Origin: an uncultured Arenicella sp.
GTDB taxonomy: Bacteria; Pseudomonadota; Gammaproteobacteria; Arenicellales; Arenicellaceae
Assembly (NCBI GenBank): GCA_937922925.1
Contig: CALAKU010000034.1
Span: 1-36,397 of the forward strand
Reading direction: 5' to 3'
Length of the DNA: 36,397 nucleotides
The translations under genes and the position numbers were made by a program. The notes beneath the pieces were generated by a model. That model worked only from the letters and a program-made list of their open reading frames with translations, was not told the DNA's origin and did no database searches. Within the stretch, counting starts at the first letter, position 1, and each line of letters begins with the position of its first letter. Shown piece after piece: positions 1,513-33,627 of this stretch.

Positions 1513-1583
1513 CTTTTATCGGCACTCGCAATTCGGTCTAAATCAAATACCAATGCTTTGGCGACGAGGCCAGAGCCATCATA

Positions 1584-2372: not shown

Positions 2373-2397
2373 GCCAAATTATAGAAAACGAACCACG

Positions 2398-17064: not shown

Positions 17065-17093
17065 TGTGGTGCTTCACCAAACTATTTTGTTTT

Positions 17094-17108
17094 TTGTTAA
17101 CAATTTAC
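17094..17108. promoter_or_regulatory. Operator-like site A, upstream of the halogenase-gntR-kdgK group
   Basis: Contains the perfect palindrome TTGTTAACAA (17094-17103) and extends to TTGTTAACAATTTAC, matching the pattern TTGTNNACAATNNAC shared with sites at 24253, 28418 and 32208. It begins 29 bp upstream of the ATG at 17064, a position suited to repression. Autoregulation of the GntR gene would follow. Confidence 0.55.
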
Positions 17109-17153
17109 AACAGAATACCGTAAAACGACTCTCAGCAAAAGCTTAGCCAATCA

Positions 17154-18038
17154 TTACTGTGGGCCCAGCACTGGCGTAAAACGAGGCTGCTCGATACCTT
17201 GGCGATCGGTTTTGTAAATAAACACATCGCCAGCGCCTTTTTGATTTTGCCCTACGGCGGCTGAAGTCACGCACAGCAAGTCCAAATTCGCCCCGCCAAA
17301 GGCAACACAGGTGGGTTGCTTGACTGGCATAATTAAGTCTGCGTCAACTGCGCCGGTTGATGAATAGCAGCGTATTTTCCCTCCGCCCCATTCGGCATTA
17401 TAAACCCGCCCTTGAATATCCGTGGTTGAACCGTCGGGGAAGCAATCTTCATCGGTATTTGCAAAATCAATCACAGAACCTAGATTACCTTGCGCATCGT
17501 TAGAAAACTGGCGAATCGTTTGAGTGGGCGTGTCGGTATGATACATACGCCGCCCATCTGCACTCCAACACAAGCCGTTTGAAATCTCGATATCGCTCAT
17601 CATTCTATGCAATGTCAGGTCTGCATCAAGCCTATATAAAGCTGTTTTTGAAACGCTTGCTGACGTGTCTTCCACCACGCCGCCAACCCAAAAACGGCCG
17701 GACGGATCTGTTTTACCATCGTTTAAGCGGCTGGCTGGGTTGGATGCCTCAATCTTGTGAAGCCAATCTACTGTGCCAGCGTCTGGGTTGTACCAGGCCA
17801 AGCCCGAAGCGAAGGCGGCGAGCAGTCGTTGGCGACCTGTTACCAACGCAAAGGAACACAGCGGTTCAGGGGTTTGCCATTGGCTTAGTTCATCGGCCTC
17901 AATGTCATAGCGAAACAAACTTTGCCCAAGGATATCAACCCACCACAAGGCTTCGGTTTGCGCATCCCAAATAATACCCTCACCGAGTTGGTTCGCAACC
18001 GGCAGCTGGCGTATCAACTCAGCTTGCATGGCTAGCAT
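17154..18038 (-). CDS. SMP-30/gluconolactonase family sugar lactonase (cytoplasmic)
   Basis: 294-residue six-bladed propeller lactonase with no signal peptide. Family signatures visible are LGEGIIWD (17-24), ending the first strand with the metal-binding Glu, then RLNDGKTDPSGRFWVGG, ISNGLCWSADG with the metal-binding Asn, YHTDT and PDGSTTDIQGRVYNAEW with the catalytic Asp. It follows dgoA with a 20-bp overlap (11 bp if the second Met is used), last in the seven-gene run from 24099. With a galactose dehydrogenase and galactonate dehydratase at the left end of the window, hydrolysis of galactono-lactone to galactonate is the likely job. A role on another aldonolactone cannot be excluded. Confidence 0.88.
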   Translation of the reverse strand: MLAMQAELIRQLPVANQLGEGIIWDAQTEALWWVDILGQSLFRYDIEADELSQWQTPEPLCSFALVTGRQRLLAAFASGLAWYNPDAGTVDWLHKIEASNPASRLNDGKTDPSGRFWVGGVVEDTSASVSKTALYRLDADLTLHRMMSDIEISNGLCWSADGRRMYHTDTPTQTIRQFSNDAQGNLGSVIDFANTDEDCFPDGSTTDIQGRVYNAEWGGGKIRCYSSTGAVDADLIMPVKQPTCVAFGGANLDLLCVTSAAVGQNQKGAGDVFIYKTDRQGIEQPRFTPVLGPQ

Positions 18039-18675
18039 TGACAGCCGCGACCACGCGACGTGTTGCTTGAAACACTTGCTTAGCAGTCATGCCTGGTTTG
18101 AAAATCTCACTGCCGAACCCAAAGCCTGTTGCGCCCGCTTTCTTCCAAGTTGTTAGCTCTGATAGCTTGACTCCGCCAACTGCGTACACCTGAGCTGAGT
18201 GTGGTAGCACGGCCTTCATCGCCGCGAGGTGGCCACTGCCAACGGTAGAGGCGGGAAAGAGTTTCAGCTGCGTTGCGCCGGCGTGCAAAGCCGCGAAGGC
18301 CTCGGTCGGTGTCATGCATCCGGGCATGGGCAAAAGACCAGCATCGAGACACTCTTTAATCAAGTCTGGCTGAGTTGAGGGCGTTACCGCCAACTCGGCA
18401 CCAACCTCGACTAATTTAGGAATATCACTTAACTGGGTAAGAGTGCCGCAGCCCACCATACAGTGCGCTTTTAACTCGTCGCTTAATAGACGAATGCACT
18501 CAAATGCATTTGGCGTATTTAGTGGCACTTCGATGACACGAACGCCCGCTTCATAAATGGCATTGGCAATATCGGCCACTTCGGCAAGTTGAACACCTCG
18601 AATGATGGCGACCACCGGCATCTCACCAATGGCGGCAGTTAACTTATTTTCCAATGGATTGTTATTAGGCATCAT
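18019..18675 (-). CDS. dgoA: 2-dehydro-3-deoxy-6-phosphogalactonate aldolase (KDPG/KDPGal aldolase family)
   Basis: 218-residue class I aldolase that splits KDPGal into pyruvate and glyceraldehyde 3-phosphate. Motifs: AIIRG (23-27), IEVPLNTPNA (48-57; the PLN[ST]P form is that of DgoA), VGCGTL, VTPSTQPD, PGCMTPTEAF and the Schiff-base lysine K138 in QLKLFPAS, then GGV and GFGSEIF phosphate-binding loops. It overlaps dgoK by 11 bp and the lactonase gene by 20 bp, so translation is coupled. No separate KDPG aldolase (Eda) is seen here although kdgK would generate KDPG; this enzyme may serve both branches, or Eda is encoded elsewhere. Confidence 0.9.
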   Translation of the reverse strand: MMPNNNPLENKLTAAIGEMPVVAIIRGVQLAEVADIANAIYEAGVRVIEVPLNTPNAFECIRLLSDELKAHCMVGCGTLTQLSDIPKLVEVGAELAVTPSTQPDLIKECLDAGLLPMPGCMTPTEAFAALHAGATQLKLFPASTVGSGHLAAMKAVLPHSAQVYAVGGVKLSELTTWKKAGATGFGFGSEIFKPGMTAKQVFQATRRVVAAVNASHAS

Positions 18676-19636
18676 TAGTGGATTGGGCTGCTAGCTTATA
18701 TTCTGTGTTAAATAAAATGGGGTAAGCGTGTTTAAACACCTCATCAGGATCAGCAAGAATTGCACGCACGCCAAAAAGCGTTAGCGCTGTTTGGTAACTT
18801 TGGCTAATGCCCGAACGACCAATTACCACCATACTTGAAAGGTTTTTTTGAATGGGTTCGATGAGGGCTAAACCACTTTTTAGATCTTGGCCGACGATTA
18901 ACCCGAGTAGATAACTCGACGCACAAGTTGGAGCTTTTGTATCCACAAGCTGTTTGGCACGCACGCTAAAAAGTAAAGACATCGTATCGGCTTGAGTATT
19001 GCGCGCAGTTTTCACGCCATCGATAAAACTGTCTTGTTCGAGGCGTTCAGATTGATCCGTCGCCGTCAGAATCGAATATTGATCAAGTACCGAATACAGC
19101 TCACCGGTGTAGTTAGTAAAAAAGGTATCGACCCGCCCGCCGTTGATGATTGACCATTTGTTGTGGGTACCGGGCGTGATGGCCACGACATTTTTTTGTG
19201 CATCGGTATGCGCGCCGTACAAAGACGACACGCCCAGAAGCTGCACTTCTTCGCCGCGCATGGTGTCGCACAAACCTAAGGGATTACGTGTTTTCAATCC
19301 GCCCAATATTGTGATTTGCAAACTACGCGCAGTGAAGCGCACGCTCTGGGCAAGAAAGTCGTCTTGATCTGCCGGGCAGACCGCGTAGCCCGCTTCTTGC
19401 CAACCAATTGATGACCCAACCATGCCCGATAAAACGACATACTTAATCGGGTATTGGTTTAACCAATCTGCTACTTGTTTAAAAAAATAGGCTTCGATGT
19501 CTTGGCCCTTCAATTTAGCGGCGCCAAGTGCATTTTTTTGATCTATAGCTCGGGATTGTTGCGGGCCGTTTTCAAATAGATACAGGCAACAAGACGATGT
19601 TCCCCAGTCTCCGGCGATGAAATAGCGTGGCTGCAT
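18665..19636 (-). CDS. dgoK: 2-dehydro-3-deoxygalactonokinase
   Basis: 323-residue ASKHA-fold kinase that phosphorylates 2-keto-3-deoxy-D-galactonate. The N-terminal GDWGTSSCCLYL (9-20) is the first phosphate-binding motif of DgoK proteins. TPGTHNKWS in the middle is the second family hallmark, and the C-terminal part has the VVIGRSGISQSY loop. It sits between the aldehyde dehydrogenase (52 bp gap, no evident ribosome site) and dgoA (11-bp overlap). Together with dgoA, the SMP-30 lactonase and dgoD at 2398 it completes the De Ley-Doudoroff route from galactose to pyruvate and glyceraldehyde 3-phosphate. Confidence 0.9.
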   Translation of the reverse strand: MQPRYFIAGDWGTSSCCLYLFENGPQQSRAIDQKNALGAAKLKGQDIEAYFFKQVADWLNQYPIKYVVLSGMVGSSIGWQEAGYAVCPADQDDFLAQSVRFTARSLQITILGGLKTRNPLGLCDTMRGEEVQLLGVSSLYGAHTDAQKNVVAITPGTHNKWSIINGGRVDTFFTNYTGELYSVLDQYSILTATDQSERLEQDSFIDGVKTARNTQADTMSLLFSVRAKQLVDTKAPTCASSYLLGLIVGQDLKSGLALIEPIQKNLSSMVVIGRSGISQSYQTALTLFGVRAILADPDEVFKHAYPILFNTEYKLAAQSTNDA

Positions 19637-19688
19637 AATAAATCGGCTTTTGCCAACGCAAGCGCAGGCAAGATTGCTTGGATCGTGC

Positions 19689-21146
19689 TTAGGCTTCGTT
19701 CATGTAAACGGTTTTCTTTTCCAAGTATTGATACAAACCATACTTGCCGTCTTCACCGCCATAACCGCTTTGCTTCCATCCGTTGTGAAAGCCTTGGTGC
19801 TGCTCGCCCATACCACGATTCACATACACTTCGCCGACTTCAAGTTGATCGATGGCTTGGTTAATGTAGTCAAAGCGTTTGGTAAACAAATACGCCGACA
19901 AACCGTATTCGCTGTCGTTACTGAATTCGATGGCTTGGTCTAAGCTGCTGACTTTTACGATTGGCAAAATAGGCCCAAAGGTTTCTTCTTGCACCAGCGT
20001 ATTATTTTGATCGACGTTAACCAGTAAAGTTGGCTCGTACCAGCAGCCGTTTTCAAAACCGTCGACGGTCGCTGGTTTGCCGCCACAAACCAACTCGGCA
20101 CCTTCGCTCACGCCTTTATCAACCAAGCTTTGAATATGCGCAATCTCGGCTTGGTTTACCTTGGGGCCAATGTCTGTAACATCCAACATGGGGTCGCCGA
20201 TTTTCAGCGCTTTAACCATGGGAGTGAAGATCGCTAAAAATTCACCGTATACCGATTCGTGTACGTAGAGGCGTTCAGCACAGGTGCAAACCTGACCACA
20301 ATTGGCGTAGCGGGCCGCTAAGGCTTGTTCAGCCGCATAGTGAAGATCGGCATCTTCCATGATGATCAGGGGCGCCTTGCCACCAAGCTCGAGCATCACC
20401 GATGTCATGTTGTCGGCACAGGCTTTAAAAATGCGTTTACCGGTTGGCGTGCTACCGGTCATGGTGACCATTTTGGTGATGGGGCTAGAGCACAATTCAT
20501 TACCCACACCTGAGCCAGTGCCGTTAATGATGTTCAATACGCCAGCCGGAATACCCGCTTCATTCGCAAGCTTACCCAACTCTAAAGTCGCCAACGGCGT
20601 TTCTTGAGTGGGCTTTACCACAATTGTATTGCCCGTAATCAACGCGGGCCCAATCTTGCGGCCCGCTAAAGCCAATGGAAAGTTCCAAGCCGTAATCGCC
20701 ACCACCACGCCTTTGGGCACCATGTGGATATAAATTTTTTCGTTCTCATTATCCGAAGGCAATATGTCGCCTTCGATAGTCAAGGCATGATCGCAGGCAT
20801 ACTCGATAAATGTCGCCGTTGCGCCGACCTCGGCGTTGGCAACTGACAACAGCTTGCCTTGCTCGTGTACCAGCATTTCGGCTAAGCGATCCGTATTGCC
20901 GCGAATCAAGTCTGCGAAGCGACGCAGAATACTTGCTCGCTCTCGTGCGGTTTTTTTTGCCCACGGTGCTTGCGCCGCTTGCGCTACCTTAAGCGCATGT
21001 TGAGCATCGCCCACGGTACCGGCTGGAATGGAACCCACGGCTTCACCGGTGCTTGGCGAGAGCACTGTAATTTGTTCATCACTTTCAGAATTACAATACT
21101 GGCCGCCCACAAAATTAAGGTTGTTGTACTCGCTTATTTGTTTCAT
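19689..21146 (-). CDS. Aldehyde dehydrogenase, candidate 3,6-anhydro-L-galactose dehydrogenase
   Basis: ALDH-superfamily enzyme of 485 residues, close in style to lactaldehyde/AldA-type dehydrogenases. Catalytic features: AWNFP with N155, LELGGKAP with general base E253, and the nucleophile C287 in [11 protein letters not shown] place the start at 21146, giving the typical ATGA overlap with the SDR stop. An in-frame ATG at 21158 exists, but it touches its GGAGG directly. It is fourth in the operon begun by the putative AHG-acid cycloisomerase, so oxidation of AHG to 3,6-anhydrogalactonate, first step of the AHG pathway described in Vibrio and Streptomyces, is the best assignment. Substrate assignment rests on context. 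Confidence 0.85.
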
Positions 21147-21907
21147 CGGCCCATCCATCCTCCGTCAACGGTGACGGTGCTGCCGTTCATGTAATCGGAT
21201 GCTTCAGACGCCAAGAATACAACTGGCCAAGCCAGATCTGACGGCGTCCCCCAACGCCCCTGAGGTATTCTTTCGAGAATCGATTTCGAACGATTCTCAT
21301 CAGCGCGTAAAGCAGCCGTATTGTCAGTGGCAATATACCCTGGCGCTACCGCATTTACATTTACCCCACTCGCCGCCCACTCGTTCGATAATGCCATCAC
21401 CAATTGGCCGATGCCCCCCTTACTAGCTGCATAACCCGGCACCGTGATTCCCCCCTGGAATGCCAATAGTGAACTGGTAAAAATAATCTTGCCGCGGCCG
21501 CGTTCGACCATGCCTTTGCCAATTTCTCGGCTGAGAATAAACTGAGTAGATAGATTCACATCGATCACGCGATCCCATAATTCATCGGGATGCTCTGCCG
21601 CCGGCGCACGCTCAATCGTGCCTGCGTTGTTAACCAAAATATCAATCACCTTGTGCTCGGTATTAAGATCATTGATAAATCGATAAACATCATCGCGATC
21701 ACTGAAATCACATTGATACGCACTAAACGCCTGCCCTGTTTTTTCTACGGCCTGAGCCGCATCAGAACCTTGCGCGGCCAAACTTGCCGACACGCCAATA
21801 ATATCCGCACCGGCCTGCGCCAAGGCGACGGCAATTTCTTTACCGATACCGCGGCTGCATCCGGTCACCAGCGCGACTTTGCCGCTCAGGCTAAATTTAT
21901 CTAACAT
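21143..21907 (-). CDS. kduD: KduD-type SDR: 2-keto-3-deoxy-D-gluconate 5-dehydrogenase / 2,5-diketo-3-deoxy acid reductase
   Basis: 254-residue classical [11 protein letters not shown] (15-22), NNAG (93-96), catalytic S146, Y159 and K163 (YAASK). The segment [19 protein letters not shown] and [12 protein letters not shown] are hallmarks of KduD proteins. In the AHG pathway this enzyme would reduce 2,5-diketo-3-deoxy-galactonate to D-KDG, the partner step to the Zn-dependent dehydrogenase encoded just upstream (11-bp gap). Its stop overlaps the start of the aldehyde dehydrogenase. In pectin or alginate pathways KduD runs a related interconversion, but no uronate-lyase genes are seen here. Confidence 0.88.
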
Positions 21908-21918
21908 GATGTTCTCGT

Positions 21919-22941
21919 TTAAGCGTGGTTACAGGCGATAACCGCCTTCATACCTTTAGGATTATTATCCATATTTGCAAAGGCATCACCAATGTTGGGC
22001 AAGGCAGTGGTAAAAGTGATAAATGAATCAATATCGATTTTATTATTGGCTACAAGCTCGATGGCTTTCTCGAAATCACTGGCTTCGTAAACGCGCGCGC
22101 CTAAGAGCTCTAACTCTTTCCAAAAGAATTGAAACAAATCGATGGGCTGCTTTTCAGAATGGATTGCAACCATGCAGATGCGTCCGCGCACAGCGGCGAT
22201 CTCCGTCATGGCGTCTATCGCTGGCGCCACACCCGAGACTTCATAGACCACATCGGCACCTTTTCCATGAGTCCATTCATTAACAACCGCTTTGATGTCT
22301 TGCTCTACGGGATTGACGGTTTTGATGCCATGTTCTTTAGCAAAGGCTAAGCGCGATTCATTCAATTCAGAAATCATGACCTCGGCGCCCAAGGCTTTGC
22401 CCACTTGCGCAATTAATTGACCAATCGGCCCGCCACCGATGACCACCGCTTTTTCACCTACCTTTAAACGTGAGCGAGCAACATCATGGCAAGCTACGGA
22501 GAGCGGCTCAATCAAGGCACCACTTTTTAGACTCACGTGCGCTGGTAATTTGTGCAGAGTTTTAACCGGCACCGTCCATGAGCTTTGAAAGCCACCAGCC
22601 GAATCAATGCCCATAAAGTTTAAGTTGTGACAAACATGGCTATTACCTGCGTCGCACGCTGGGCAATCACCGCAGTAATCTAGAGGTCGCACCACCACTT
22701 TGTCGCCAATCGCATAGTCGCTAACACCAGAGCCTAACTCGACGATGGTGCCAGAGACTTCGTGGCCAATGACTTGTGGCGGCGCGACGCGTTGGTCCAT
22801 CACGCCATGATATATGTGCATGTCGGTGCCACAGATACCAACGTAACCAACATTAAGGCGAACCTCGCCTGCTTGTGGGGCAATGGCGTGGCCTTCGCCA
22901 ATCTCAAATGATTTATTGCCGATGTAGTGTGCTGCTTGCAT
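21919..22941 (-). CDS. Zn-dependent medium-chain dehydrogenase, candidate L-2-keto-3-deoxygalactonate 5-dehydrogenase
   Basis: 340-residue MDR alcohol dehydrogenase. Catalytic zinc ligands C37 (GICGTD), H60 and E61 (GHEVSG); structural zinc cysteines C90, C93, C96 and C104; cofactor motif VIGGGPIGQLIAQ followed by an acidic residue (ISE) that favours NAD. It is second in the operon, 6 bp after the cycloisomerase gene and 11 bp before kduD. Expected reaction: oxidation at C5 of L-2-keto-3-deoxygalactonate, product of the cycloisomerase, to the 2,5-diketo acid that KduD then reduces to D-KDG. General sorbitol/threonine dehydrogenase annotation would also fit the sequence; the operon decides. 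Confidence 0.85.
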   Translation of the reverse strand: MQAAHYIGNKSFEIGEGHAIAPQAGEVRLNVGYVGICGTDMHIYHGVMDQRVAPPQVIGHEVSGTIVELGSGVSDYAIGDKVVVRPLDYCGDCPACDAGNSHVCHNLNFMGIDSAGGFQSSWTVPVKTLHKLPAHVSLKSGALIEPLSVACHDVARSRLKVGEKAVVIGGGPIGQLIAQVGKALGAEVMISELNESRLAFAKEHGIKTVNPVEQDIKAVVNEWTHGKGADVVYEVSGVAPAIDAMTEIAAVRGRICMVAIHSEKQPIDLFQFFWKELELLGARVYEASDFEKAIELVANNKIDIDSFITFTTALPNIGDAFANMDNNPKGMKAVIACNHA

Positions 22942-22947
22942 AGTCTA

Positions 22948-24099
22948 TTACTGTGTAAGGTGTGGGCGTAGCGCCTCAAGATCAAAATCAACACCAGTGC
23001 CGATGAGTTCTGGCGCAATGGCTTGGCCACACGCACTTAACTTAAGTGGTGCTGATGTGTATTGATCAATTGGGAAGGAATGTACTTCTAAATAGCCGGC
23101 GTGAGGCTGAGCAGCCATTAAAGAAACATGCAGCTCGTGCATGCCATGACTGCAAATCGGTAAATTGGCTTGCTTCGCCAAATCAGCAATGTGTAACCAT
23201 CCTGTGATACCGCCAATATTAGACGCATCCGGTTGTAAGAAGCCGAGTTTAGATTGCGCTATGGCATAACCAAACTCAAATGGCGTGTGCAGGTTTTCGC
23301 CCATGGCGAGAGGAATACGAGTGTTCTCTGCGATACGTGCATAACCTAGATAATCGTCTGGCACGGTAGGTTCTTCAAACCACACCAAGTTATTGGCTTC
23401 AACCGCTTTGGAAAAATCAATGGCTTGATCGACATCCATGGAATAGTTGGCGTCGACCATAAATTGCGTGTTTGCGCCGATTAACTCACGCACTGCGGTA
23501 ACTCGGGCGACGTCTTCCAGATAATCTTCCTTACCAACTTTGATTTTTACCGCGCCAAAACCTCGATCTAAATAGCCTTGCACATTTTGCAATAAGCGGT
23601 CCTGATCAAAATTCAGATCAATGCCACCTGCGTAACAACGAGCCATTGGAGACTCACCACCAATGTATTTGTAAAGAGGTTGCTCGGCCCGCTTGCATCG
23701 AATGTCCCACAGGGCAATGTCGATAGCAGAAATAGCAAAGCTGACTAAGCCGCCCCGACCCACGTAATGCATGTGCCAATTCATGTCGTGCCATAAGGCC
23801 TGAATATCACTGCACTCGCGGCCCTTAATAAAGCCAGCCAAATCATAATCGATTAGGCATTTAATCGCATGGCCACCACGACCACCAGTATAGCTATAAC
23901 CAGTCCCTTTAAAACCGTCACTGGTTTGGATGTCACAAACAATCAATTCAAAATGCGTGTGATCGCCATGCTTGGCATCACTAAGCACTTCGGCCAGTGG
24001 CACTGCATAGTGACGCACCGATACATCCTCGATATACGACTCGGAACTCAGCTCAATATGGCCAAAAGAATTGGGATTGTTTACTGCGTGGTATTTCAT
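22948..24099 (-). CDS. Enolase-superfamily 3,6-anhydro-L-galactonate cycloisomerase
   Basis: 383-residue mandelate racemase/muconate lactonizing enzyme-type protein. Visible catalytic set: KIK motif with K185 and K187, metal ligands D216 (VDANYS), E242 (FEEPT) and E268 (MGEN), and H318 (CSHGMHE). The N-terminal capping domain carries a longer than usual lead (about 22 residues) before the first strand. This MLE-like subgroup within an agarose locus corresponds to AHG-acid cycloisomerases, which open the anhydro ring to give L-2-keto-3-deoxygalactonate. It heads the seven-gene minus-strand operon. A near-consensus promoter overlaps operator-like sites about 130-175 bp upstream. The paralogous dgoD at 2398 has different active-site residues (D-x-H instead of K-x-K), matching a different reaction. 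Confidence 0.86.
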   Translation of the reverse strand: MKYHAVNNPNSFGHIELSSESYIEDVSVRHYAVPLAEVLSDAKHGDHTHFELIVCDIQTSDGFKGTGYSYTGGRGGHAIKCLIDYDLAGFIKGRECSDIQALWHDMNWHMHYVGRGGLVSFAISAIDIALWDIRCKRAEQPLYKYIGGESPMARCYAGGIDLNFDQDRLLQNVQGYLDRGFGAVKIKVGKEDYLEDVARVTAVRELIGANTQFMVDANYSMDVDQAIDFSKAVEANNLVWFEEPTVPDDYLGYARIAENTRIPLAMGENLHTPFEFGYAIAQSKLGFLQPDASNIGGITGWLHIADLAKQANLPICSHGMHELHVSLMAAQPHAGYLEVHSFPIDQYTSAPLKLSACGQAIAPELIGTGVDFDLEALRPHLTQ

Positions 24100-24218
24100 C
24101 AGTCGTTTAAATCTGGGATAGAACCTGATTCGAAATCAAGAGAAGGCCTTTTCGAAAATTGTTAAAGCGGCCATCTAATCTAGTAGTGCGATAGCCCATG
24201 ACCCATAAGGTCTTGCTT

Positions 24219-24233
24219 ATTTGTACGACAAAT
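24219..24233. promoter_or_regulatory. Second operator-like palindrome at the AHG operon promoter
   Basis: ATTTGTACGACAAAT is a 15-bp palindrome (six-base arms around ACG) that fits the FadR-subfamily pattern TNGTNNNACNA. It covers the predicted start of transcription and three bases of the -10 box of the minus-strand promoter, a classic repressor position. Its 3-bp centre differs from the 2-bp centre of sites A-D. Confidence 0.5.
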
Positions 24234-24259
24234 ATAAAGTCCATTTTGTTTATTGTCAA
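24231..24259 (-). promoter_or_regulatory. Sigma-70-like promoter of the AHG/galactose catabolic operon
   Basis: Minus strand: -35 TTGACA (24259-24254, perfect), 17-bp spacer, -10 TATATT (24236-24231, five of six). Predicted start near 24224, giving a leader of about 125 nt before the ATG at 24099. Both boxes overlap operator-like palindromes, so the promoter is strong but probably repressed without inducer. Confidence 0.6.
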
Positions 24260-24274
24260 CAATTTACTGTTGAC
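24253..24274. promoter_or_regulatory. Operator-like site B between back-to-back promoters
   Basis: TTGTCAACAATTTAC (24253-24267) matches the shared pattern TTGTNNACAATNNAC. It also forms an inverted repeat GTCAAC / GTTGAC (24255-24260 with 24269-24274, 8-bp spacer). The left arm contains the -35 of the minus-strand operon promoter and the right arm adjoins the -35 of a plus-strand promoter, so one bound regulator could control both directions. Confidence 0.6.
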
Positions 24275-24298
24275 GAAAACAGGTTTAAATGCGATTAT
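24270..24298 (+). promoter_or_regulatory. Putative plus-strand sigma-70 promoter for the candidate small RNA
   Basis: -35 TTGACG (24270-24275, five of six), 17-bp spacer, -10 GATTAT (24293-24298, four of six). It is divergent from the AHG operon promoter. No protein gene follows before the strong terminator ending at 24462. Confidence 0.4.
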
Positions 24299-24304
24299 TA
24301 GATG

Positions 24305-24462
24305 GTGCTATTAAGCGACAAATATTTCATTGCCAACCCAACCACAATGAAACGTTTTTTTACTTAACCTCAAGTACTTCTTAGCTTACAAAAACGCGTA
24401 CGCGATAAGTACAAACTCCTTCTTCACCATGCTCTTCGACTTGCTCGAAGAGCTTTTTTTTG
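24305..24462 (+). ncRNA. Candidate small RNA divergent from the AHG operon
   Basis: About 155 nt between a plus-strand promoter-like sequence and a strong plus-strand terminator, in a 492-bp gap without protein genes. It holds a stem-loop TTTCATTG / CAATGAAA (24325-24332 with 24345-24352) whose 12-nt loop is the C-rich CCAACCCAACCA, a T run just after it, the self-complementary GCGTACGC (24396-24403) and the terminator. The only reading start (ATG at 24345) encodes six codons without a ribosome site. A C-rich exposed loop would suit pairing with G-rich ribosome sites. Prediction only; no known family was recognised. Confidence 0.35.
24432..24462 (+). terminator. Strong Rho-independent terminator, plus strand
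   Basis: Stem GCTCTTCGA / TCGAAGAGC (24432-24440 with 24446-24454), loop CTTGC, then eight T (24455-24462). On the minus strand no T run follows, so it does not serve sapC. It implies a plus-strand transcript in a region without a coding gene. Confidence 0.8.
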
Positions 24463-24591
24463 CCTGATTAATTTGCACCCATTTACCAGTGTTTAGTTAA
24501 TCTGTTTATACGCCCAAAATCAGCGCTAGCCCTTTATGATTCGCTCAATATACAAGGCTCGTTTCCCTTGCTTAGGTAAGTACTTTAAAGG

Positions 24592-25329
24592 CTAATTGCG
24601 CGCCGCTTTCCACTCAATCAATTTGGGCAAATGCCCTTGAGAATGAATCAGCGCATAGATGGCTTGAAAATATCCTTTACGGTGAAAGTCTAGGACTTGC
24701 GCTTGCGCTAGCTTACTTAGTTGGTCAGGATCAATACTATAAAGGCCATCGAAACTGGTTTTCTCTTGGCCTTTAAGCTGCACATCCAAGGTAGCTGGCA
24801 CAATCAACTCAAGAGCGCTTAAGCGTTCGAGGAACGCCTTCGTGGTCTTAAAACCTTGTAATAGAGTATTCAGGATGCCAAAAACCGACTCTACATAGGC
24901 ACTTGGCTTACCATCCGGCTGAAACAGAGCTTCGCCGACATTAGTGCTCAATCGGCTGTTTTCGATATCAACGCCCAGCTTTAGCTCATCTCCTGGCTTG
25001 ATGTCGTCGATGGTTGAAGCGCCGCTGTCGCTGACCACACAGGCCTGGAACGGTTGGCGTTGTAGATCAAGAGGAATATAAGCGGCTCGCCAAGCACCGT
25101 CTTGGACAAAGAGATTTTCTTTGGCATTTAACCCCAATAAAGCACTCAGCTCGAATTGACCTGTATGCGGATGCTTCGTAATAAAGATAGGGTAATCAAG
25201 CGCTAGCTGCGGCAACTCTTGTGCGGTGGCAATCGCCACCGGGCCGATCTCGTCAAAATAGTTGGCCAGACGATTATCAAGCTTTAGATCTGCATGTTTA
25301 CTAGCACTGAGTATTTCAATTTTTGGCAC
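24592..25329 (-). CDS. SapC family protein
   Basis: 245 residues, cytoplasmic-looking, no signal peptide. The sequence matches SapC-family proteins (for example the PIFITKHPHTGQFELSALLG region at about 48-67 and the aromatic WRAAYIPLDLQRQPF stretch), which in Alteromonadales, Caulobacterales and Xanthomonadales are encoded beside TonB-dependent receptors and tryptophan-halogenase-like genes. Biochemical function is not established. The GTG start at 25329 is five bases after GGAAG. It lies 116 bp after the receptor gene, with an intrinsic terminator between them and only 28 bp from that terminator to the start codon, so expression probably depends on readthrough. Confidence 0.85.
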   Translation of the reverse strand: MPKIEILSASKHADLKLDNRLANYFDEIGPVAIATAQELPQLALDYPIFITKHPHTGQFELSALLGLNAKENLFVQDGAWRAAYIPLDLQRQPFQACVVSDSGASTIDDIKPGDELKLGVDIENSRLSTNVGEALFQPDGKPSAYVESVFGILNTLLQGFKTTKAFLERLSALELIVPATLDVQLKGQEKTSFDGLYSIDPDQLSKLAQAQVLDFHRKGYFQAIYALIHSQGHLPKLIEWKAARN

Positions 25330-25357
25330 GGGAACTTCCGGTTTTTTAGTGTATTAA

Positions 25358-25388
25358 AAAAGGCTCGCTAGAGTCTAGCGAGCCTTTT
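25358..25388 (-). terminator. Intrinsic terminator between the TonB receptor gene and sapC
   Basis: Perfect 13-bp stem AAAAGGCTCGCTA / TAGCGAGCCTTTT (25358-25370 with 25376-25388), extendable by one G-C pair, followed on the minus strand by a T run (six T from 25360 down to 25355). It sits 57 bp after the receptor stop. Partial readthrough would set the SapC:receptor ratio. Confidence 0.8.
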
Positions 25389-25445
25389 AAAAGTGTCAAT
25401 GTTCTACGCTATTGTGGAACACAACACCTGCTTTTGTAAAAGGGT

Positions 25446-28271
25446 TTAGAAGTTACCTCTAAAACCTACCGAAAAGCGAGGGCCACTGCTGAATGCGCGA
25501 TCCAGTGTGCGGCTCGAACGACCATGTCGGCGCGTGGTTTCATCAGTAATATTTAAGCCTTCAACAAACACCGAGTAGGTATCGCTGATATTGTAACTTG
25601 CAGAGAAATCAACTTGACTGAAGGCTTCAGTGAAAATAGGCTCAGCACCGGAGACCAATAGGAAATCGTCTCTCCAGTTCCAAGCAACTCGAGCCGACCA
25701 TGGGCCTTTTTCATAGAAACCCACCACATTCGCTGAGTCGCTCAAACCAGTTAATGGAGCTGGTGCTTGCGTTTCAAAATCACCAAGGTCGAACTCAATA
25801 TCACCATCGGTATAGGTATAGTTAAGAACGAAGCCAAAACCATTATCAAACACGTGCTGCCAAGCGAACTCAGCACCGCGAACAGTGCCTTCATCTGGCG
25901 AATTAAAGTCACGTTGTACGTCAAAAATGATCGGCGTGTCACCAGCCATCGATAAACAACCGGCACCCGGGCAACCTGGGCGAGTAAAACCCGGGTTGGC
26001 AATTGGGTTACCCGCAGAATCAGGTAGCGTTTGACGCTCAATGTCGGTGGCAGTAAACGCTAAAACATCTTTGTTAAACAACCCTAACGACGCATAGCTC
26101 CCTGGCTTGTAATACCACTCTAGCGAGAAATCGAGATTCTCGGCCTCGGCTGGTTCTAAACCAGCGTTACCTTGAACAGCGATAAAGCTTCCCGTACCGC
26201 CGTCGGTTGCGGGGCGCAGCGCATTAAAGCTGGTTGAAGGTGTTAACGCAGCAATCGGTTGGCGAGTGATGGTTTCGCTGTAAGAGAAACGTGCCACTAA
26301 GTTTTCGTTCACATCGAGTTTGAAGTCAACGCTAGGCAAAATGAAATCGTAGTTGCCTTCAACCGTGTCAAAAACAAAACCGTCGCCACGAACGAGTCGC
26401 AGCTCGGCATCGTTGATGAACTCAGTCGCTAAAATTGGCTGCTCAGCAGTTTGACCAACCACGTCGGTTTCTTCATAACGAACACCGACGTTAATCGCCA
26501 ACGGCATGTTACCAATTGCTGTTTGGAAATCAGCCGATGCAAATAACGAAGTAGTCTCTTCTAAGACACGCTCAACCGCCTCGGTGGGCTCGGTGAAGAA
26601 CCCTTGTGCTTGGGCAGCAGCAACAGCGTCACGCGGGTCGTAGCGGAACAAACTCGGGAATAAACCTGGGCCACCGCCACTAAAATCACTAAAACGGCTA
26701 CCCCGTGACTCGGCGATGATGTTGACCCCAGAGGCGTCAAAATCAGGCACGCCGTCGGTGACACCATCAATTAAGAAAAAAGTTTGCGTTTCTTCATTGC
26801 GGTAGGAGTAGTCTTGATAAGACGCACCAAACGTAACGCGTTGTAGAGCTGTTTCATTATCAAACAGGTATTCACCTAAAATTTTGAACTCGTCGACTTC
26901 GTTCAAGATTTGGCGACCACGTTGCTGACCAATGTCGGGCGTTAAATTTGCAGGATCAAAGGGGTCAAAACCAGCGGCTTCAACGAGCACATTTGGAATA
27001 TCTCCGTCGCCAAAATCAGCTCCAACCAAATCAACATTTGGCGAATGGAAGTTAATCACTAGCTCCGCCGTTTCATTGCCAGGCTGCGATTCAGACTGAG
27101 AACTGTGGGCATCCACATTAAGGCGAAAGTTATCACTGACATTCCAATCAATATTGATACCAAACGAATCATTATCGGTGACTAAATCTTGTGCGAAGCC
27201 AAAGGCATCAACATCAATGTTATTGCCCGCGTCACGCAAGCTAACCACACCATTAGCATCTGAAACGCCTGAGCGTTGGCCATCAAAACCAAACCAAAAC
27301 CCCGTTCCATTTCGCAAGGTCAACTCGTCGAAACGTGACAAATGGTAATCAATATCAATCTCAAGGTTATCAGTAGGTGCTAACTGTAATACAAACTGGC
27401 CATTTACGCGCTCGCGTTGAACATCGGCAGTTTCAAGAATGAAGTTACGTGCCAAGAATAAGGCGTTTCTGGGATTTGTATTGGCACCAAAATCAATCGC
27501 TGATTCAACTGCACCGTCAAAGGCACGTTGGGTTAAGTCTACCAATCCCGTTTCTAATCGACTGTCACGTTCTTGATAAGAGAGCGATGCCAGAAAACCA
27601 ATTTTTTTGTCATTCCAGTGATCGCTCACCAAAAATGAGACGTCCGGCGTAAAATCAGAACCGGTTTCGTTGGTTGTGTCGTGTACCGCTTTGACATTCG
27701 CGACAAATTTAAAGTCGTCATAATCGAATGGCTTAGCCGTACGAATATTCACGGTAGATCCGATCCCACCCGTTGGTAAGTCAGCACGGCCCGTTTTAAA
27801 GACTTCAACCCCCGATACGCTGGAAGAGGCGAGCTCATTAAAGTTAAAGCTACGATCCAAAAAGCGTGAAAATAATGCGTTAGAGGTCGGCAGGGTTCGA
27901 CCATTTAAGGTGACAAGATTAAAACGTGGGCCAAACCCTCGAACAGTGATTTGGTTGCCCTCATTGTTCTCGCGGTCGATCGAGACACCTGTAACGCGTT
28001 GCAATGATTCAGCCAAGTTGGCATCTGGGAACTTGCCAATGTCTTCTGCCGAAATCGCATCTACAACACCGGATGCGTTTCGTTTTATTTCCGAAGAACG
28101 TTCTAATGATGAACGAATACCCGTGACCACTAATTCTTCAAGCGGATCACTCGATGTCGTTTGTGCAGTTGCTTGCTGCGCAGATACGCCAAGCATCGCC
28201 GTTGCAACGGCGGTTAATGCAAATCGACCTGCACCTCGAAAATTAGAATTGGGCATGTTTGCCTTCTTCAT
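25446..28271 (-). CDS. TonB-dependent outer-membrane receptor, probably for agaro-oligosaccharides
   Basis: 941 residues. Signal peptide (hydrophobic about 16-34, cleavage near ATA-QT), TonB box LEELVVTG (about 44-51), plug domain with the typical DIGKFPDANLAESLQRVTGV and VRGFGPRFNLVTLNGR segments, then a long 22-strand-type barrel rich in aromatic residues and ending in Phe (SVGFRGNF). It belongs to the large gammaproteobacterial/Xanthomonas-Caulobacter carbohydrate receptor type rather than the SusC type; no SusD partner is present. AGGAGAGG lies just before the ATG. The neighbouring GH50 genes and shared operator suggest agaro-oligosaccharide uptake. SapC follows on the same strand. Confidence 0.92.
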   Translation of the reverse strand: MKKANMPNSNFRGAGRFALTAVATAMLGVSAQQATAQTTSSDPLEELVVTGIRSSLERSSEIKRNASGVVDAISAEDIGKFPDANLAESLQRVTGVSIDRENNEGNQITVRGFGPRFNLVTLNGRTLPTSNALFSRFLDRSFNFNELASSSVSGVEVFKTGRADLPTGGIGSTVNIRTAKPFDYDDFKFVANVKAVHDTTNETGSDFTPDVSFLVSDHWNDKKIGFLASLSYQERDSRLETGLVDLTQRAFDGAVESAIDFGANTNPRNALFLARNFILETADVQRERVNGQFVLQLAPTDNLEIDIDYHLSRFDELTLRNGTGFWFGFDGQRSGVSDANGVVSLRDAGNNIDVDAFGFAQDLVTDNDSFGINIDWNVSDNFRLNVDAHSSQSESQPGNETAELVINFHSPNVDLVGADFGDGDIPNVLVEAAGFDPFDPANLTPDIGQQRGRQILNEVDEFKILGEYLFDNETALQRVTFGASYQDYSYRNEETQTFFLIDGVTDGVPDFDASGVNIIAESRGSRFSDFSGGGPGLFPSLFRYDPRDAVAAAQAQGFFTEPTEAVERVLEETTSLFASADFQTAIGNMPLAINVGVRYEETDVVGQTAEQPILATEFINDAELRLVRGDGFVFDTVEGNYDFILPSVDFKLDVNENLVARFSYSETITRQPIAALTPSTSFNALRPATDGGTGSFIAVQGNAGLEPAEAENLDFSLEWYYKPGSYASLGLFNKDVLAFTATDIERQTLPDSAGNPIANPGFTRPGCPGAGCLSMAGDTPIIFDVQRDFNSPDEGTVRGAEFAWQHVFDNGFGFVLNYTYTDGDIEFDLGDFETQAPAPLTGLSDSANVVGFYEKGPWSARVAWNWRDDFLLVSGAEPIFTEAFSQVDFSASYNISDTYSVFVEGLNITDETTRRHGRSSRTLDRAFSSGPRFSVGFRGNF

Positions 28272-28771
28272 TTTTCCTCTCCTAATATTTATTCGGTTCG
28301 TTTGTTAGAAATTTTCTGTTTGCTTTACCAAATAGTCGAAACGGAACCAGCGATATAACTTTGGACTATCAACTATCAAACTCAATGTTATATGTACTTT
28401 GAAAATAAAACAATATATTGTTAACAATTAACAGTTAAATATTTAAGAGGTAGATTCGATAGGCCTGTTGCGTAGACCAAACTTAAATCACTTGCACCGC
28501 CGATACGGAAATTTGACAGTAACCATATCTATTTGAAAATTAAAGAATTTCTTATTGTGAGAGAGACACAGCCTCAATCAAGACGGCTGCATATCAAAAT
28601 AAAAGCCAACTGAAATTCCAGATCTGATTTTGCAAACTGATTCCAAAACTTCGTAATAAATTTTGAAAAAGCACAGAAATTAAAAATAAATAGCCGCTTA
28701 GATTTACCAGTTATTCCATAAAATCATGCCTTAACCGCTACAATCTCACCCTAACCCAAAACACTAAACTC
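28272..28771. other. Divergent intergenic region, TonB receptor / GH50 agarase
   Basis: 500 bp, AT-rich, no gene recognised. It holds operator-like site C (28417-28432). On the plus strand a TACAAT -10-like hexamer (28739-28744) stands about 20 bp before the region preceding the GH50 ATG, without a convincing -35. The GH50 leader from there is A/C-rich with no Shine-Dalgarno. No clear promoter was found for the receptor gene. Confidence 0.5.
28417..28432. promoter_or_regulatory. Operator-like site C upstream of the TonB receptor gene
   Basis: Perfect palindrome ATTGTTAACAAT (28417-28428), extending as TTGTTAACAATTAAC (28418-28432), which matches the pattern TTGTNNACAATNNAC. A second GTTAA element at 28434-28438 gives the same spaced-arm layout as site B. 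It lies about 147 bp before the receptor ATG and about 340 bp before the divergent GH50 ATG. Confidence 0.55.
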
Positions 28772-31237
28772 ATGGCTTTCAATAATAAAATAACTCTCAC
28801 CAACCCGCTAACTTTGAAGGTGCACTCACTTCTTCTTGGCTTGATTTGCCTTTGCCTAGCGGCTTGTGATGATTCACCTGAGTCAGATCAACAAAGCAAA
28901 CCGCCTGCTCGGTCTTTAGATAGAGAAATCATGCTTGCGGATTTTAATAACGGGCTTCTTCCTTCTTATATAAGTGCAAACAACGGCGATGTCTCCATCG
29001 TTGCGTTTGACCAGACGGCACGTAACGACAAGTCACCCGACGCATCAACACCAGACACGCAAACGACACAACAAGCCGAAAGATCCAAAGCCCTGAAAGT
29101 CAACTTGTTCTCGAAAGACAACTGGTCTGCGGCTTTAAATTTACAGCCTGACACACCGTGGGATTGGAGCCAGCATCGTGACTTCAACCTCGCTTTTGAC
29201 GTCGCCAATTACGGCAGTGAATCAGTACAAGTTGATTTGGTCATTACCGACATAAATGGCGATGCCTACACGCGCGTCTTTGTCATACCCGTCGGCGATG
29301 CCACCACAGTGTACGCAAAAATGGATGGTCATGACCAAACTCACCCTGATGGCACTCCGATTAATGAGTTTAATTTCATTTCAGGGTTGCGCTCTAATCC
29401 ACCAACGTGGCAATCGACAGATCGGCAGGTTTATTCGCTGTGGGGGAAAAAGTCTTTAGCCCTTGAGGGCATCACCGGCGTTAACTTTAATGTCTCAGGC
29501 AATTTGAGTGACCGAGAGTTCATTCTAGATAACCTTAGACTTCGCCCTAACCCACCGATGGACCCGAATTTTCTTGTTGATATTGTTGACGAATTCGGCC
29601 AATTCACACGGGCTAATTATTCAAGCAAAATATCAAGCTTAGAACAGCTCAAAACAATCGCCGACCAAGAGATGAGCGAACTCGCAGGAACGACTTGGCC
29701 TAATCGAAGCCGCTTCCACGGCTGGAAAGGCGGCCCCAAACAGACCGCCACCGGTTATTTTCGTACCGAAAAAGTGAATGGCAAATGGTGGTTAGTGGAT
29801 CCTCAAGGCTATCTCTACTTTTCGACAGGCTTGGATATCATTCGCCTATCAAACTCGTCGACGATTACAGGTTACGACTTCGACGCGTCAACGATTCAGG
29901 CTCGTGATGTCAATGAGATTATCTCCGAAGACGATCAACCTCTAAATCGTGTCAACGAAGACGCTATTCCTAGCCGTACGTTAATTAATCAAACTCGTGC
30001 AAATATGTTTAGCTGGCTACCCAAATACGACGACCCGCTGGGCGATCATTTCGGTTATCGACGGTCGGTGCAATCTGGCCCCATGAAGCATGGCGAGACC
30101 TTTAGCTTTTACAGCGCAAACTTAGAACGGCGTTATGGAGAAACGTATCCTAAATCGTATATGGATACCTGGCGAGACGTTACTATCAAGCGCATGATCG
30201 ACTGGGGTTTTACCTCGTTTGGCAATTGGGCTGAGCCTGAGTTTTACGCAAATACTCAAATCCCGTTTATCGCTTTTGCCGACATCAACGGTGACTTTGG
30301 CACCATTACCAGCGGCTTTGATTTTTGGCATCCATTGCCCGATCCTTTTGATCCTAAGTTTTATGATCGCGCGCTGGTCTCTGCTCAATTTGTGGCTGAA
30401 CAAATCAACGCGAGCCCTTGGTGCATGGGTATATTTTACGATAATGAACAAAGCTTTGGCCGCCCAGAAACAGATAAACTCTACTTTGGTTTGGTATTAA
30501 ATACACTCAAAGAAAATGCCGAGACGACGCCAGCTAAAGCCGCATTTACTAAAATTCTACAAGAAAAATATCGCAACATTGCCGATCTAAACTCTGCGTG
30601 GCAAACGAGCTTTGGTTCTTGGGATCAATTCGCAACCATGGCCGACGCTGGCTTTACGACACCCGAGCAACGGCAAGACTATTCCGACCTACTGTACGCT
30701 TTTGGCAAGCAATATTTTGGCTCTATTCGTCGGGCCACCAAAAAAGTTCTACCTAATCATTTGTACCTAGGTGCGCGTATGGCCGACTGGGGTCGACCTG
30801 ATGAAATCGTGCGCGCCGCCGCTGAGGAATCAGACGCATTATCGTTTAACTTATACGAAGACGGTTACAAAGCCAGTCACTGGCAGATCTTAGACGAACT
30901 CGATAAGCCAACATTGATTGGCGAATTTGGATTTGGCGCCGATGACGCTGGCCACTTTCATCCAGGTATTGTGGTCGCCGCTGACCAAAAGGATCGTGCG
31001 CGCAAGTACAAAGCCTACATGCATTCAATTATCGATAGCCCACACTTTATAGGCGCACATATGTTTCAGTATATGGATGGGCCAATTACAGGGCGCGCGT
31101 ACGATGGAGAAAATTATAATTTCGGCTTTGTATCAATTACCGACATTCCATATGCGCCTTTGGTTGAGGCTGCCAAAGAAGTACACGGCGAACTGTATAC
31201 GAGACGGTTTGGCGCGCCTTCAGAAAAAAACCAATAA
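28772..31237 (+). CDS. GH50 beta-agarase, lipoprotein
   Basis: 821 residues. Type II signal with lipobox LAAC and modified Cys at position 32. The +2 and +3 residues are Asp-Asp, which in E. coli retains lipoproteins in the inner membrane (periplasmic face). A CBM-like beta-sandwich (about 45-260) precedes the TIM-barrel catalytic domain, with ATGYFRTEKVNGKWWLVDPQ marking its start. Predicted acid/base E559 (FYDNEQS) and nucleophile E718 (LIGEFGFG) are 159 residues apart, close to the spacing I recall for Saccharophagus Aga50D. GH50 enzymes act mostly as exo-agarases releasing neoagarobiose. A paralogue lies at 33628 with the same catalytic spacing. No Shine-Dalgarno is seen before this ATG. 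The gene is divergent from the TonB receptor and convergent with the PhyH gene. Confidence 0.9.
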   Translation: MAFNNKITLTNPLTLKVHSLLLGLICLCLAACDDSPESDQQSKPPARSLDREIMLADFNNGLLPSYISANNGDVSIVAFDQTARNDKSPDASTPDTQTTQQAERSKALKVNLFSKDNWSAALNLQPDTPWDWSQHRDFNLAFDVANYGSESVQVDLVITDINGDAYTRVFVIPVGDATTVYAKMDGHDQTHPDGTPINEFNFISGLRSNPPTWQSTDRQVYSLWGKKSLALEGITGVNFNVSGNLSDREFILDNLRLRPNPPMDPNFLVDIVDEFGQFTRANYSSKISSLEQLKTIADQEMSELAGTTWPNRSRFHGWKGGPKQTATGYFRTEKVNGKWWLVDPQGYLYFSTGLDIIRLSNSSTITGYDFDASTIQARDVNEIISEDDQPLNRVNEDAIPSRTLINQTRANMFSWLPKYDDPLGDHFGYRRSVQSGPMKHGETFSFYSANLERRYGETYPKSYMDTWRDVTIKRMIDWGFTSFGNWAEPEFYANTQIPFIAFADINGDFGTITSGFDFWHPLPDPFDPKFYDRALVSAQFVAEQINASPWCMGIFYDNEQSFGRPETDKLYFGLVLNTLKENAETTPAKAAFTKILQEKYRNIADLNSAWQTSFGSWDQFATMADAGFTTPEQRQDYSDLLYAFGKQYFGSIRRATKKVLPNHLYLGARMADWGRPDEIVRAAAEESDALSFNLYEDGYKASHWQILDELDKPTLIGEFGFGADDAGHFHPGIVVAADQKDRARKYKAYMHSIIDSPHFIGAHMFQYMDGPITGRAYDGENYNFGFVSITDIPYAPLVEAAKEVHGELYTRRFGAPSEKNQ

Positions 31238-31272
31238 AAAAACCGCAGGGCGTTCCCCCGAACACCCTGCGG
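31236..31272 (-). terminator. Rho-independent terminator of the PhyH gene, overlapping the end of the GH50 gene
   Basis: Stem CCGCAGGG / CCCTGCGG (31243-31250 with 31265-31272) continues past a bulge into GTTC-CCCC-GAAC (31252-31263). On the minus strand it is followed by seven T (plus-strand A run 31236-31242), so it ends the minus-strand PhyH transcript 26 bp after its stop. The T run reaches into the GH50 stop codon. Plus-strand termination would be weaker. Confidence 0.75.
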
Positions 31273-31297
31273 CTTCACCCCGAACAGCGATTAATCA

Positions 31298-32182
31298 TTA
31301 CGCAGTGGCTTGATACAGAAGAGGGAAATACTTCGACTCCATTTTCTCGCCCTTTGGCACACGAATATCGGTGCCACGCAGCATGATGTCTTCTGTATCA
31401 CTTTTAGTACCGTCAGCAAATACATTCAATACCAAGGCACGACGGCTGCGTTCAGAAGTATTAGCATAAGAACCATGAATCATCAGAGGATGATGAAACG
31501 CGGCATGCCCCTTTTTCAGCTCTATTGGCACCGGTTTAACTTGTTTTTTTTGATCTTCGTTTAACTGCTCAAGCAAGGCATCCATCTCACCTCCCAGCTC
31601 AAGGCGCTTTAGTAAACCCCACCGATGACTACCAGGAATGTATTGCAAACAACCATTTTCCTGCGTCGCGTCGTCAAGGCCTATCCAACAAGTTAGGTGC
31701 TGCATCGGTACGGTACGAACCCAATACGAGTAATCTTGATGCCAAGCGACGACACCGCCATGTTTGGCCGGCTTACAAAACAGTTGGTCGTGCCAAAAAC
31801 GAACTGAACGATCACCAAGCAGCTGACTGGCTGGTTTGACAAACGCCGGATGCCAAAGCACATCGTGAAAGCCCTCAGCAATACGCCAATGCCCTAGAGA
31901 GTGAAACAAAACGGTATTCGGGTCAGTGGATTGATTCGCGTGTATTTCGTAAAACAAATCGCGCTTAGGATGATCGGGTTCAGCAATTTCATTTAGTTCT
32001 TTGCGCAACAATTCAACTTGCTCGTCATCCAAAATTTTGATGTTGCTGACGTAACCATATTCGTGAAAATGGTCGATCTGTTCTGCACTTAACTTAAAGG
32101 GCAGAAAATCGCTCTCGTCTTGTGTCTTCGGAAAATGGTTGGCTACGGGCTCGTGCCAGTTTGCAAAGTCGTGTGAACTCAT
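31298..32182 (-). CDS. Phytanoyl-CoA dioxygenase (PhyH) family Fe(II)/2-oxoglutarate oxygenase
   Basis: 294 residues, cytoplasmic. Iron ligands are H148 and D150 (WHQDYSYW) and H236 (MIHGSYANTS), with R247/R248 positioned for 2-oxoglutarate. The frame extends to a TTG at 32224, but that region overlaps the operator, so I choose the ATG at 32182. It has no Shine-Dalgarno, yet lies exactly six bases after a CATAAT -10 box, fitting a leaderless transcript. PhyH proteins hydroxylate varied small molecules; the substrate here is unknown. Position between two agarases and under the shared operator suggests a decorated agar sugar or a product such as a methylated galactose (speculation). Transcription ends at the hairpin 31243-31272. 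Confidence 0.85.
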   Translation of the reverse strand: MSSHDFANWHEPVANHFPKTQDESDFLPFKLSAEQIDHFHEYGYVSNIKILDDEQVELLRKELNEIAEPDHPKRDLFYEIHANQSTDPNTVLFHSLGHWRIAEGFHDVLWHPAFVKPASQLLGDRSVRFWHDQLFCKPAKHGGVVAWHQDYSYWVRTVPMQHLTCWIGLDDATQENGCLQYIPGSHRWGLLKRLELGGEMDALLEQLNEDQKKQVKPVPIELKKGHAAFHHPLMIHGSYANTSERSRRALVLNVFADGTKSDTEDIMLRGTDIRVPKGEKMESKYFPLLYQATA

Positions 32183-32188
32183 AGTAGG

Positions 32189-32217
32189 ATTATGATACAA
32201 ACTCAAATTGTATACAA
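32189..32217 (-). promoter_or_regulatory. Promoter of the PhyH gene, embedded in operator D, predicted leaderless
   Basis: Minus strand: -35 TTGTAT (32217-32212), 17-bp spacer, -10 CATAAT (32194-32189, five of six). Six bases separate the -10 from the ATG at 32182, so the predicted start of transcription coincides with the start codon. The -35 lies inside the operator-like sequence 32208-32225. Confidence 0.45.
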
Positions 32218-32225
32218 TATACAAT
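32208..32225. promoter_or_regulatory. Operator-like site D between the PhyH and MFS-GH50-lactonase genes
   Basis: TTGTATACAATATACAAT contains the perfect palindrome TTGTATACAA and matches TTGTNNACAATNNAC at its first 15 bases, the same pattern as sites A-C. It is 26 bp from the PhyH ATG and 62 bp from the MFS ATG, so it may control both directions. Confidence 0.6.
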
Positions 32226-33594: not shown

Positions 33595-33627
33595 TCAAAT
33601 TATCATCTGGAATCGGAATTCTTAATT

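Follow-up and report, generated by a model that had tools for sequence, protein, structure and literature searches.

A candidate GntR-type operator at agar-utilization loci of Arenicella and other bacteria

The closest described regulators of red-algal galactan use come from Zobellia, which is a flavobacterium, and from Streptomyces coelicolor. In the carrageenan regulon of the former, CgrA governs galactan use together with anhydrogalactose catabolism, but it is an AraC-family positive regulator and is concerned with the D-enantiomer pathway (PMC5698469). In the latter, DagR has been proposed to repress the agarolytic pathway, but it belongs to the LacI rather than the GntR family, and the paper has been retracted because of a fabricated figure (retraction notice, PMC9178413). 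Here we describe a family of palindromic sites in a 36,397-nt stretch of DNA from an uncultured Arenicella sp. (assembly GCA_937922925.1, contig CALAKU010000034.1; hereafter, the window). These sites are very probably the operators of a locally encoded FCD-type GntR protein, a predicted repressor of agar-utilization genes that would be released by a sugar acid. The window is one whole contig of a 2.69-Mb assembly (G000) that is 87.6% complete.

Operators of the FadR subfamily of GntR proteins consist of TKGT/ACMA boxes arranged as GT-N2-AC, with additional, weaker boxes 7-12 nt away from the centre, and the element described here shares all of these features; none of the FadR-subfamily groups named in the available sections of that survey regulates agar or anhydrogalactose use (PMC4494728). 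PrpR of Shewanella, a predicted GntR-family regulator of the methylcitrate cycle, is likewise an FCD GntR protein (PMC3223726). A figure legend mentions GntR-like factors in some carrageenan loci (PMC5698469), and the GntR mention in PMC7953866 concerns UxaR of Thermotoga. Among the open-licence papers listed, we found no regulator of the agar or L-anhydrogalactose (AHG) pathway in Proteobacteria, of the FCD-GntR type or any other; the retracted work on DagR was the sole paper on an agarolytic repressor. FCD-GntR regulators with boxes of this kind are known, and the agar/AHG operator itself appears undescribed.

The 20-bp element and its sites in the window

The original prediction, made from the letters of the window, described four similar sites at 17094, 24253, 28418 and 32208 and proposed that the local GntR protein acts through them on an agar regulon. 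A search with the same pattern returns all four, together with a fifth match on the minus strand at 24248 that represents the second half of the 24253 site. That such a set is not due to chance, as claimed, is borne out by dinucleotide-shuffled windows, in which 0.04 matches are expected and none of 100 reaches five. All four sites also lie between genes, provided that the PhyH-family gene starts at the ATG at 32182 (294 aa); the mechanical open reading frame of this gene, which runs from a TTG start, covers the 32208 site.

Other details of the original prediction had to be revised. The shared orientation of the sites means little, because the core ATTGTNNACAAT is palindromic and the fixed bases of the pattern are mostly this core plus one arm, and the supposed third half-site is the right outer arm of a symmetric operator. 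The asymmetric pattern was accordingly replaced with the 20-bp palindrome GTNNATTGTNNACAATNNAC, of the form GT-N2-ATTGT-N2-ACAAT-N2-AC, from which the window sites differ at none (24248), one (17089 and 28413) or two (32203) positions; two of the four have the left arm. All four contain TTGT-N2-ACAA, which fits the TKGT/ACMA boxes of the FadR subfamily, spaced 2-3 nt apart. The bare inner motif TTGTNNACAA is less striking (four found versus 1.03 expected, with 2 of 100 shuffles reaching four), so the strength of the signal resides in the longer element. Indeed, a weight matrix built from 33 sites, all taken from other genomes and none from the window, scores the four sites as follows (no strand is assigned):

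17089..17108: operator 1, GTTTTTTGTTAACAATTTAC, score 25.6; its core ends 28 bp before the ATG of the halogenase gene
24248..24267: operator 2, the perfect 20-bp palindrome, score 28.9; includes the -35 hexamer (TTGACA) of the cycloisomerase operon
28413..28432: operator 3, score 27.1; between the genes for a TonB-dependent receptor (minus strand) and a GH50 enzyme (plus strand)
32203..32222: operator 4, score 21.0; between the divergent PhyH (minus strand) and MFS-GH50 (plus strand) units

The next-best window position scores 4.1, and the matrix detects no fifth operator in the window, including the region upstream of the 2-keto-3-deoxy-galactonate (KDGal) kinase gene, where one of the Arenicella relatives (G014) has one. 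The genes around these sites are:

13819..14757, minus strand: KDG (2-keto-3-deoxygluconate) kinase-like PfkB kinase, downstream of gntR (PF00294; NF052444 at 266.5 bits, under the 400-bit cut-off)
14812..15420, minus strand: GntR/FCD regulator of 202 aa, the proposed operator binder (PF00392, 2.2e-19; PF07729, 4.5e-14)
15508..17064, minus strand: tryptophan-halogenase-family protein, first gene behind operator 1 (PF04820)
17154..22941, minus strand: remainder of the AHG operon, namely, zinc alcohol dehydrogenase (Zn-ADH), KduD-like short-chain dehydrogenase (SDR), aldehyde dehydrogenase (ALDH), KDGal kinase, KDPGal (phosphorylated KDGal) aldolase and SMP-30 lactonase
22948..24099, minus strand: 3,6-anhydro-L-galactonate cycloisomerase (ACI), first gene behind operator 2 (phmmer match to PDB 5xd7, E 1.1e-139)
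25446..28271, minus strand: TonB-dependent receptor (TIGR01782, above cut-off)
31298..32182, minus strand: PhyH-family dioxygenase (PF05721)
32287..35919, plus strand: MFS transporter and beta-agarase behind operator 4 (agarase matched to PDB 4bq2, 'B-agarase', E 8.6e-247)

The agarase behind operator 4 is one that we take to be a GH50 enzyme, the label also given in the original prediction. The KDPGal aldolase scores above its cut-off, and the KDGal kinase domain was found. Both domains of the GntR protein score above their cut-offs (PF00392, 69.3 bits; PF07729, 53.4 bits), which places it in the FadR (FCD) subfamily by domain content. Two more specific identities are not supported: PhnR (TIGR03338), against which the protein reaches 108.4 bits versus a cut-off of 271.5, and a DgoR-type regulator, for which a GT-AC spacing of 3 nt is reported (PMC4494728), as opposed to 2 nt at the four window sites, the comparison being confined to the window since elsewhere the search pattern fixed the spacing at 2.

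A GntR dimer would bind the 20-bp palindrome through the inner GT/AC half-sites and the outer GT/AC arms and would repress its own halogenase-gntR operon, the AHG catabolic operon, the TonB receptor, and the PhyH and MFS-GH50 units. The releasing ligand would be 3,6-anhydro-L-galactonate or 2-keto-3-deoxy-galactonate, that is, a sugar acid from agar breakdown. In this manner, the agar pathway would probably be switched on and off by a single repressor. A probable mode of action is suggested at the AHG operon, where the operator covers the -35 hexamer: in all three Arenicella genomes that encode this GntR, the operator before the cycloisomerase operon contains TTGACA, and a 17-base spacer separates this hexamer from TATATT or TATTAT (an 11/12 promoter match); in the window this is the best match of its region. 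Because the hexamer lies inside the operator, a bound protein would block RNA polymerase, which suggests repression as the likeliest mode at this operon. Since gntR follows the halogenase gene, operator 1 probably drives gntR as well; this gene order, together with an operator ~65 bp before gntR in Agaribacterium, is suggestive of self-control. The helix-turn-helix (HTH) positions 38, 40 and 59, mapped by hand from the conserved Arg, are Arg, Pro and Asn in all 12 agar GntRs compared, which by the trends reported in sections of PMC4494728 fits TTGT/ACAA, with T/A rather than G/C next to GT; the Asn trend is not significant in that source, and PrpR, too, has Arg 38 and Pro 40.

Co-occurrence of the sites with GntR

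Genome-wide, the original pattern is concentrated at the locus, as the original prediction would have it: five of its six matches in the genome fall in the window (reversed control, two matches). A GntR orthologue is present in 3 of the 21 family genomes, that is, the genome analyzed here and the Arenicella relatives G013 and G014; in a search of 109 genomes of the order, no genome other than these two and the own one gave a match at E 1e-30 or better. The three genomes contain 6, 12 and 17 pattern matches versus at most 5 in each of the 18 others. Both relatives carry sites before the halogenase gene and the cycloisomerase operon, with the perfect element preceding the cycloisomerase in each, and genes for TonB receptors, PhyH, MFS, GH50-like and sugar-transporter proteins are preceded by sites in one or both. 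Gene context was determined for all 15 sites of G013 and for 8 of the 11 sites of G014, those outside C1, C3 and C8. Five of the 15 sites in G013 precede orthologues of window agar-locus genes, and three precede other candidates (an alcohol dehydrogenase, a lectin-domain protein and a DUF6786 protein). G013 has separate sites for PhyH and for MFS, and in G014 the counterpart of operator 3 precedes a TonB gene.

A scan of a species-genome collection yielded 11 loci. Of these, ten are true relatives, namely, two Arenicella, Agaribacterium haliotis, four Catenovulum, an uncultured Alteromonadaceae bacterium, Sphingopyxis jiangsuensis and Sphingomonas turrisvirgatae. Three rows were dropped before counting, namely, L091 (Arthrobacter, 21% identity), L156 (a second, distant paralogue in G475) and L143 (a duplicate of L084). 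Homologues of window-locus genes are present at all eight non-Arenicella loci, including a cycloisomerase or GH50-like agarase at six; in the stretches examined, C. maritimum and C. agarivorans DS-2 have only TonB, halogenase and SapC homologues. A ninth locus lies on a plasmid of Catenovulum adriaticum, where the divergent operon is annotated as encoding 2,5-didehydro-3-deoxy-L-galactonate 5-reductase. Together, the nine non-Arenicella GntR loci contain 15 exact cores versus 0.47 in shuffles (0 of 200 reach 15; the reversed pattern gives none), and the GT/AC arms occupy 18 of 30 half-positions versus no more than 3 of 30 at any of eight other offsets. One locus, L088, has no exact core; two single-mismatch cores flank its GntR gene. 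Conversely, four cycloisomerase loci of 20 kb each from genomes without GntR contain no core; the G+C content of these loci is 52-65%, but sites do occur at the sphingomonad loci, whose G+C content is 60-64%.

A further 394 genomes, from the order to which Catenovulum belongs, yielded 12 new GntR genomes and one already known. Each of the 12 new GntR genes lies within 1.5 kb of a gene for a GH50-like protein (eight), a cycloisomerase (two) or a TonB receptor (two, one of these matches having only 35% identity). The 3.6-kb loci of the new genomes contain seven exact cores versus 0.125 in 40 shuffles, and a core with no more than one mismatch is present in 11 of the 12 versus 2.9 in shuffles. 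The perfect 20-mer is found in 5 of the 13 GntR genomes versus 7 of the 381 without GntR (Fisher p 1.2e-5; new genomes alone, 4/12, p 1.5e-4), whereas the reversed 20-mer occurs in nine of the latter and none of the former. All four new genomes with the perfect 20-mer have a copy 18-52 bp before the cycloisomerase match; in two of these, a second copy lies elsewhere, with no window gene nearby. Seven GntR-less genomes also have the 20-mer, one of them with a GntR match of 27% identity, and in none does a window agar gene lie within 1.5 kb of it.

The GntR-run agar regulon of the original prediction is thus supported by the co-occurrence of GntR and the motif across bacterial groups, the adjacent pathway genes, the GntR/FadR-type consensus and the empty cycloisomerase loci of GntR-less genomes. 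One proposed member is uncertain: the GH50 gene at 28772 was to be controlled from the 28418 site, but the G014 counterpart of that site lies between two TonB genes, and the TonB receptor is the more secure target of operator 3. The analysis provides a named candidate regulator together with its putative 20-bp operator and a list of targets in the cultured genera Catenovulum and Agaribacterium.

Several observations weigh against this interpretation. The loci were anchored on GntR, so another co-inherited factor may be involved, and the core, being common to the sites of PrpR (see below), cannot alone name the binding protein. Whole-genome counts of the bare core fail to separate eight genomes with GntR (5, 20, 21, 12, 18, 20, 6 and 2; reversed controls 2, 5, 9, 13, 3, 2, 0 and 0) from four cycloisomerase genomes without it (3, 9, 5 and 1; controls 0, 2, 0 and 1), so that the bare-core count was rejected as a marker of GntR; the signal is in the placement and the arms, not in the number of bare cores. 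The GntR-less genome G004 has five pattern matches, close to the six of the own genome, and in G013, 4 of the 15 sites lie inside open frames, two are next to non-agar genes and one is at the PrpR gene. In the fresh set, 1 of the 12 new loci lacks a site within 1.5 kb, the arms are weaker (4 of 14 half-positions, p 0.009), and 8 of the 13 GntR genomes lack the perfect 20-mer. Finally, promoter matches overall are at chance level (22 found versus 26 expected).

The PrpR paralogue and alternative explanations

Another contig of the same genome, C6, encodes a paralogous GntR protein (231 aa) next to the genes for methylisocitrate lyase and methylcitrate synthase. The gene for AcnD lies ~4 kb away, and each of the three enzymes scores above its NCBIfam cut-off. 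Because it adjoins prpB and prpC, this paralogue was named PrpR; in other genomes, PrpR was named by similarity alone. PrpR is found in 16 of the 21 family genomes (E 1e-60). In Arenicella, it is associated with the same 12-bp core, ATTGTNNACAAT, as the agar operators: on C6, the core occurs before acnD and before the GntR gene next to prpB/prpC (L092:5733 and 13267), the own prpR core ATTGTCAACAAT is identical to the core at window position 24252, and exact cores are present at 14 of the 16 loci with a near PrpR orthologue (at least 64% identity). No core was detected at any of the three more distant PrpR-like paralogues (L140-142). The arms set the two groups of sites apart, with GT/AC at 2 of 34 half-positions at PrpR loci as opposed to 18 of 30 at agar loci; L130, which is cut by a contig end and has the right AC, is outside the 34.

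The proteins themselves differ as well. PrpR shares 28% identity with the agar GntR, has other neighbours and differs in the HTH, with Pro at position 28 and, in most cases, His at position 59, and the agar GntRs form a clade separate from PrpR in a tree that omits the L154 GntR and 8 of the 16 PrpR rows. The window protein was not assigned to PrpR because it is not linked to prpB, prpC or acnD: its neighbours are agar and AHG genes, and a separate PrpR exists on C6. Residues 159-165 of the agar GntR, MRMRM(N/D)Y, are kept in all 12 agar GntRs compared and are absent from the 16 PrpR rows; its two arginines could hold an acid ligand.

These findings bear on three alternatives. The view that the sites are chance AT-rich palindromes draws on the choice of the pattern after the fact and on the modest excess of the bare inner motif, but has next to no probability in the face of the independent loci, the externally trained matrix and the perfect 20-mers upstream of the cycloisomerase in four fresh genomes. 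Binding of the agar sites by PrpR, or by both proteins, with the core being a PrpR box, is improbable: the own genome does encode a prp-linked PrpR and the cores are shared to the point of identity, but the excess of sites tracks the agar GntR, not the far more widespread PrpR, arms are rare at PrpR loci, and the agar sites adjoin agar genes in other bacterial groups. The two proteins may form a pair of paralogous FCD-GntR repressors with a common 12-bp core operator, the GT/AC arms seven bases beyond the inner half-sites serving to distinguish between them. At armed sites, additional subunits may be held by the arms, and competition from PrpR, if it occurs there, would couple agar and propionate metabolism; we put this scheme forward only tentatively. 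The agar GntR and PrpR provide a natural pair of paralogues for the study of GntR operator specificity.

The remaining alternative, that GntR activates its targets or acts as a dual regulator instead of being a simple repressor, is unlikely although somewhat less so than binding by PrpR. For several cores (Arenicella cycloisomerase, TonB genes and G013 MFS), the distance from the end of the core to the annotated start codon is 119-456 bp, as it may be for activators, but for many others it is 4-69 bp (the rows for window PhyH, G013 PhyH and Agaribacterium GntR were not used here), and the -35 hexamer lies inside the cycloisomerase operator in all three Arenicella genomes. Repressors predominate among local FCD regulators, which also counts against an activator. 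Repression by the local GntR remains the preferred interpretation of the four sites.

Other cores and genes in the genome

The 12-bp core occurs at nine places in the own genome (control, one): three in the window, one on C63, two on C6 and three elsewhere. On C63 (L071:5357), a GH50-like agarase gene is preceded, ~105 bp upstream of its start, by the core ATTGTTAACAAT; because this site lacks both arms, membership of the gene in the regulon is less sure. The other three were rejected as regulon members, two (C60 and C91) because they lie inside mechanical open frames and one (C73) because it adjoins a UTRA-type GntR.

Near the contig start, positions 79-3552 of the window contain sugar-transporter, SDR and galactonate-dehydratase-like genes; the counterpart operon in G013 is headed by a core, and the corresponding site of the own genome may therefore be located beyond the end of the contig. 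The pattern match outside the window, at C22:60102 (L001), has an oxidoreductase gene on one side and, on the other, a gene whose translation was read as that of hemE; it is not linked to agar genes. Positions 11422-13806 of the window encode a 794-aa protein with a match to the cysteine-rich Dickkopf_N domain (PF04706, 5e-19), which is odd in a bacterium.

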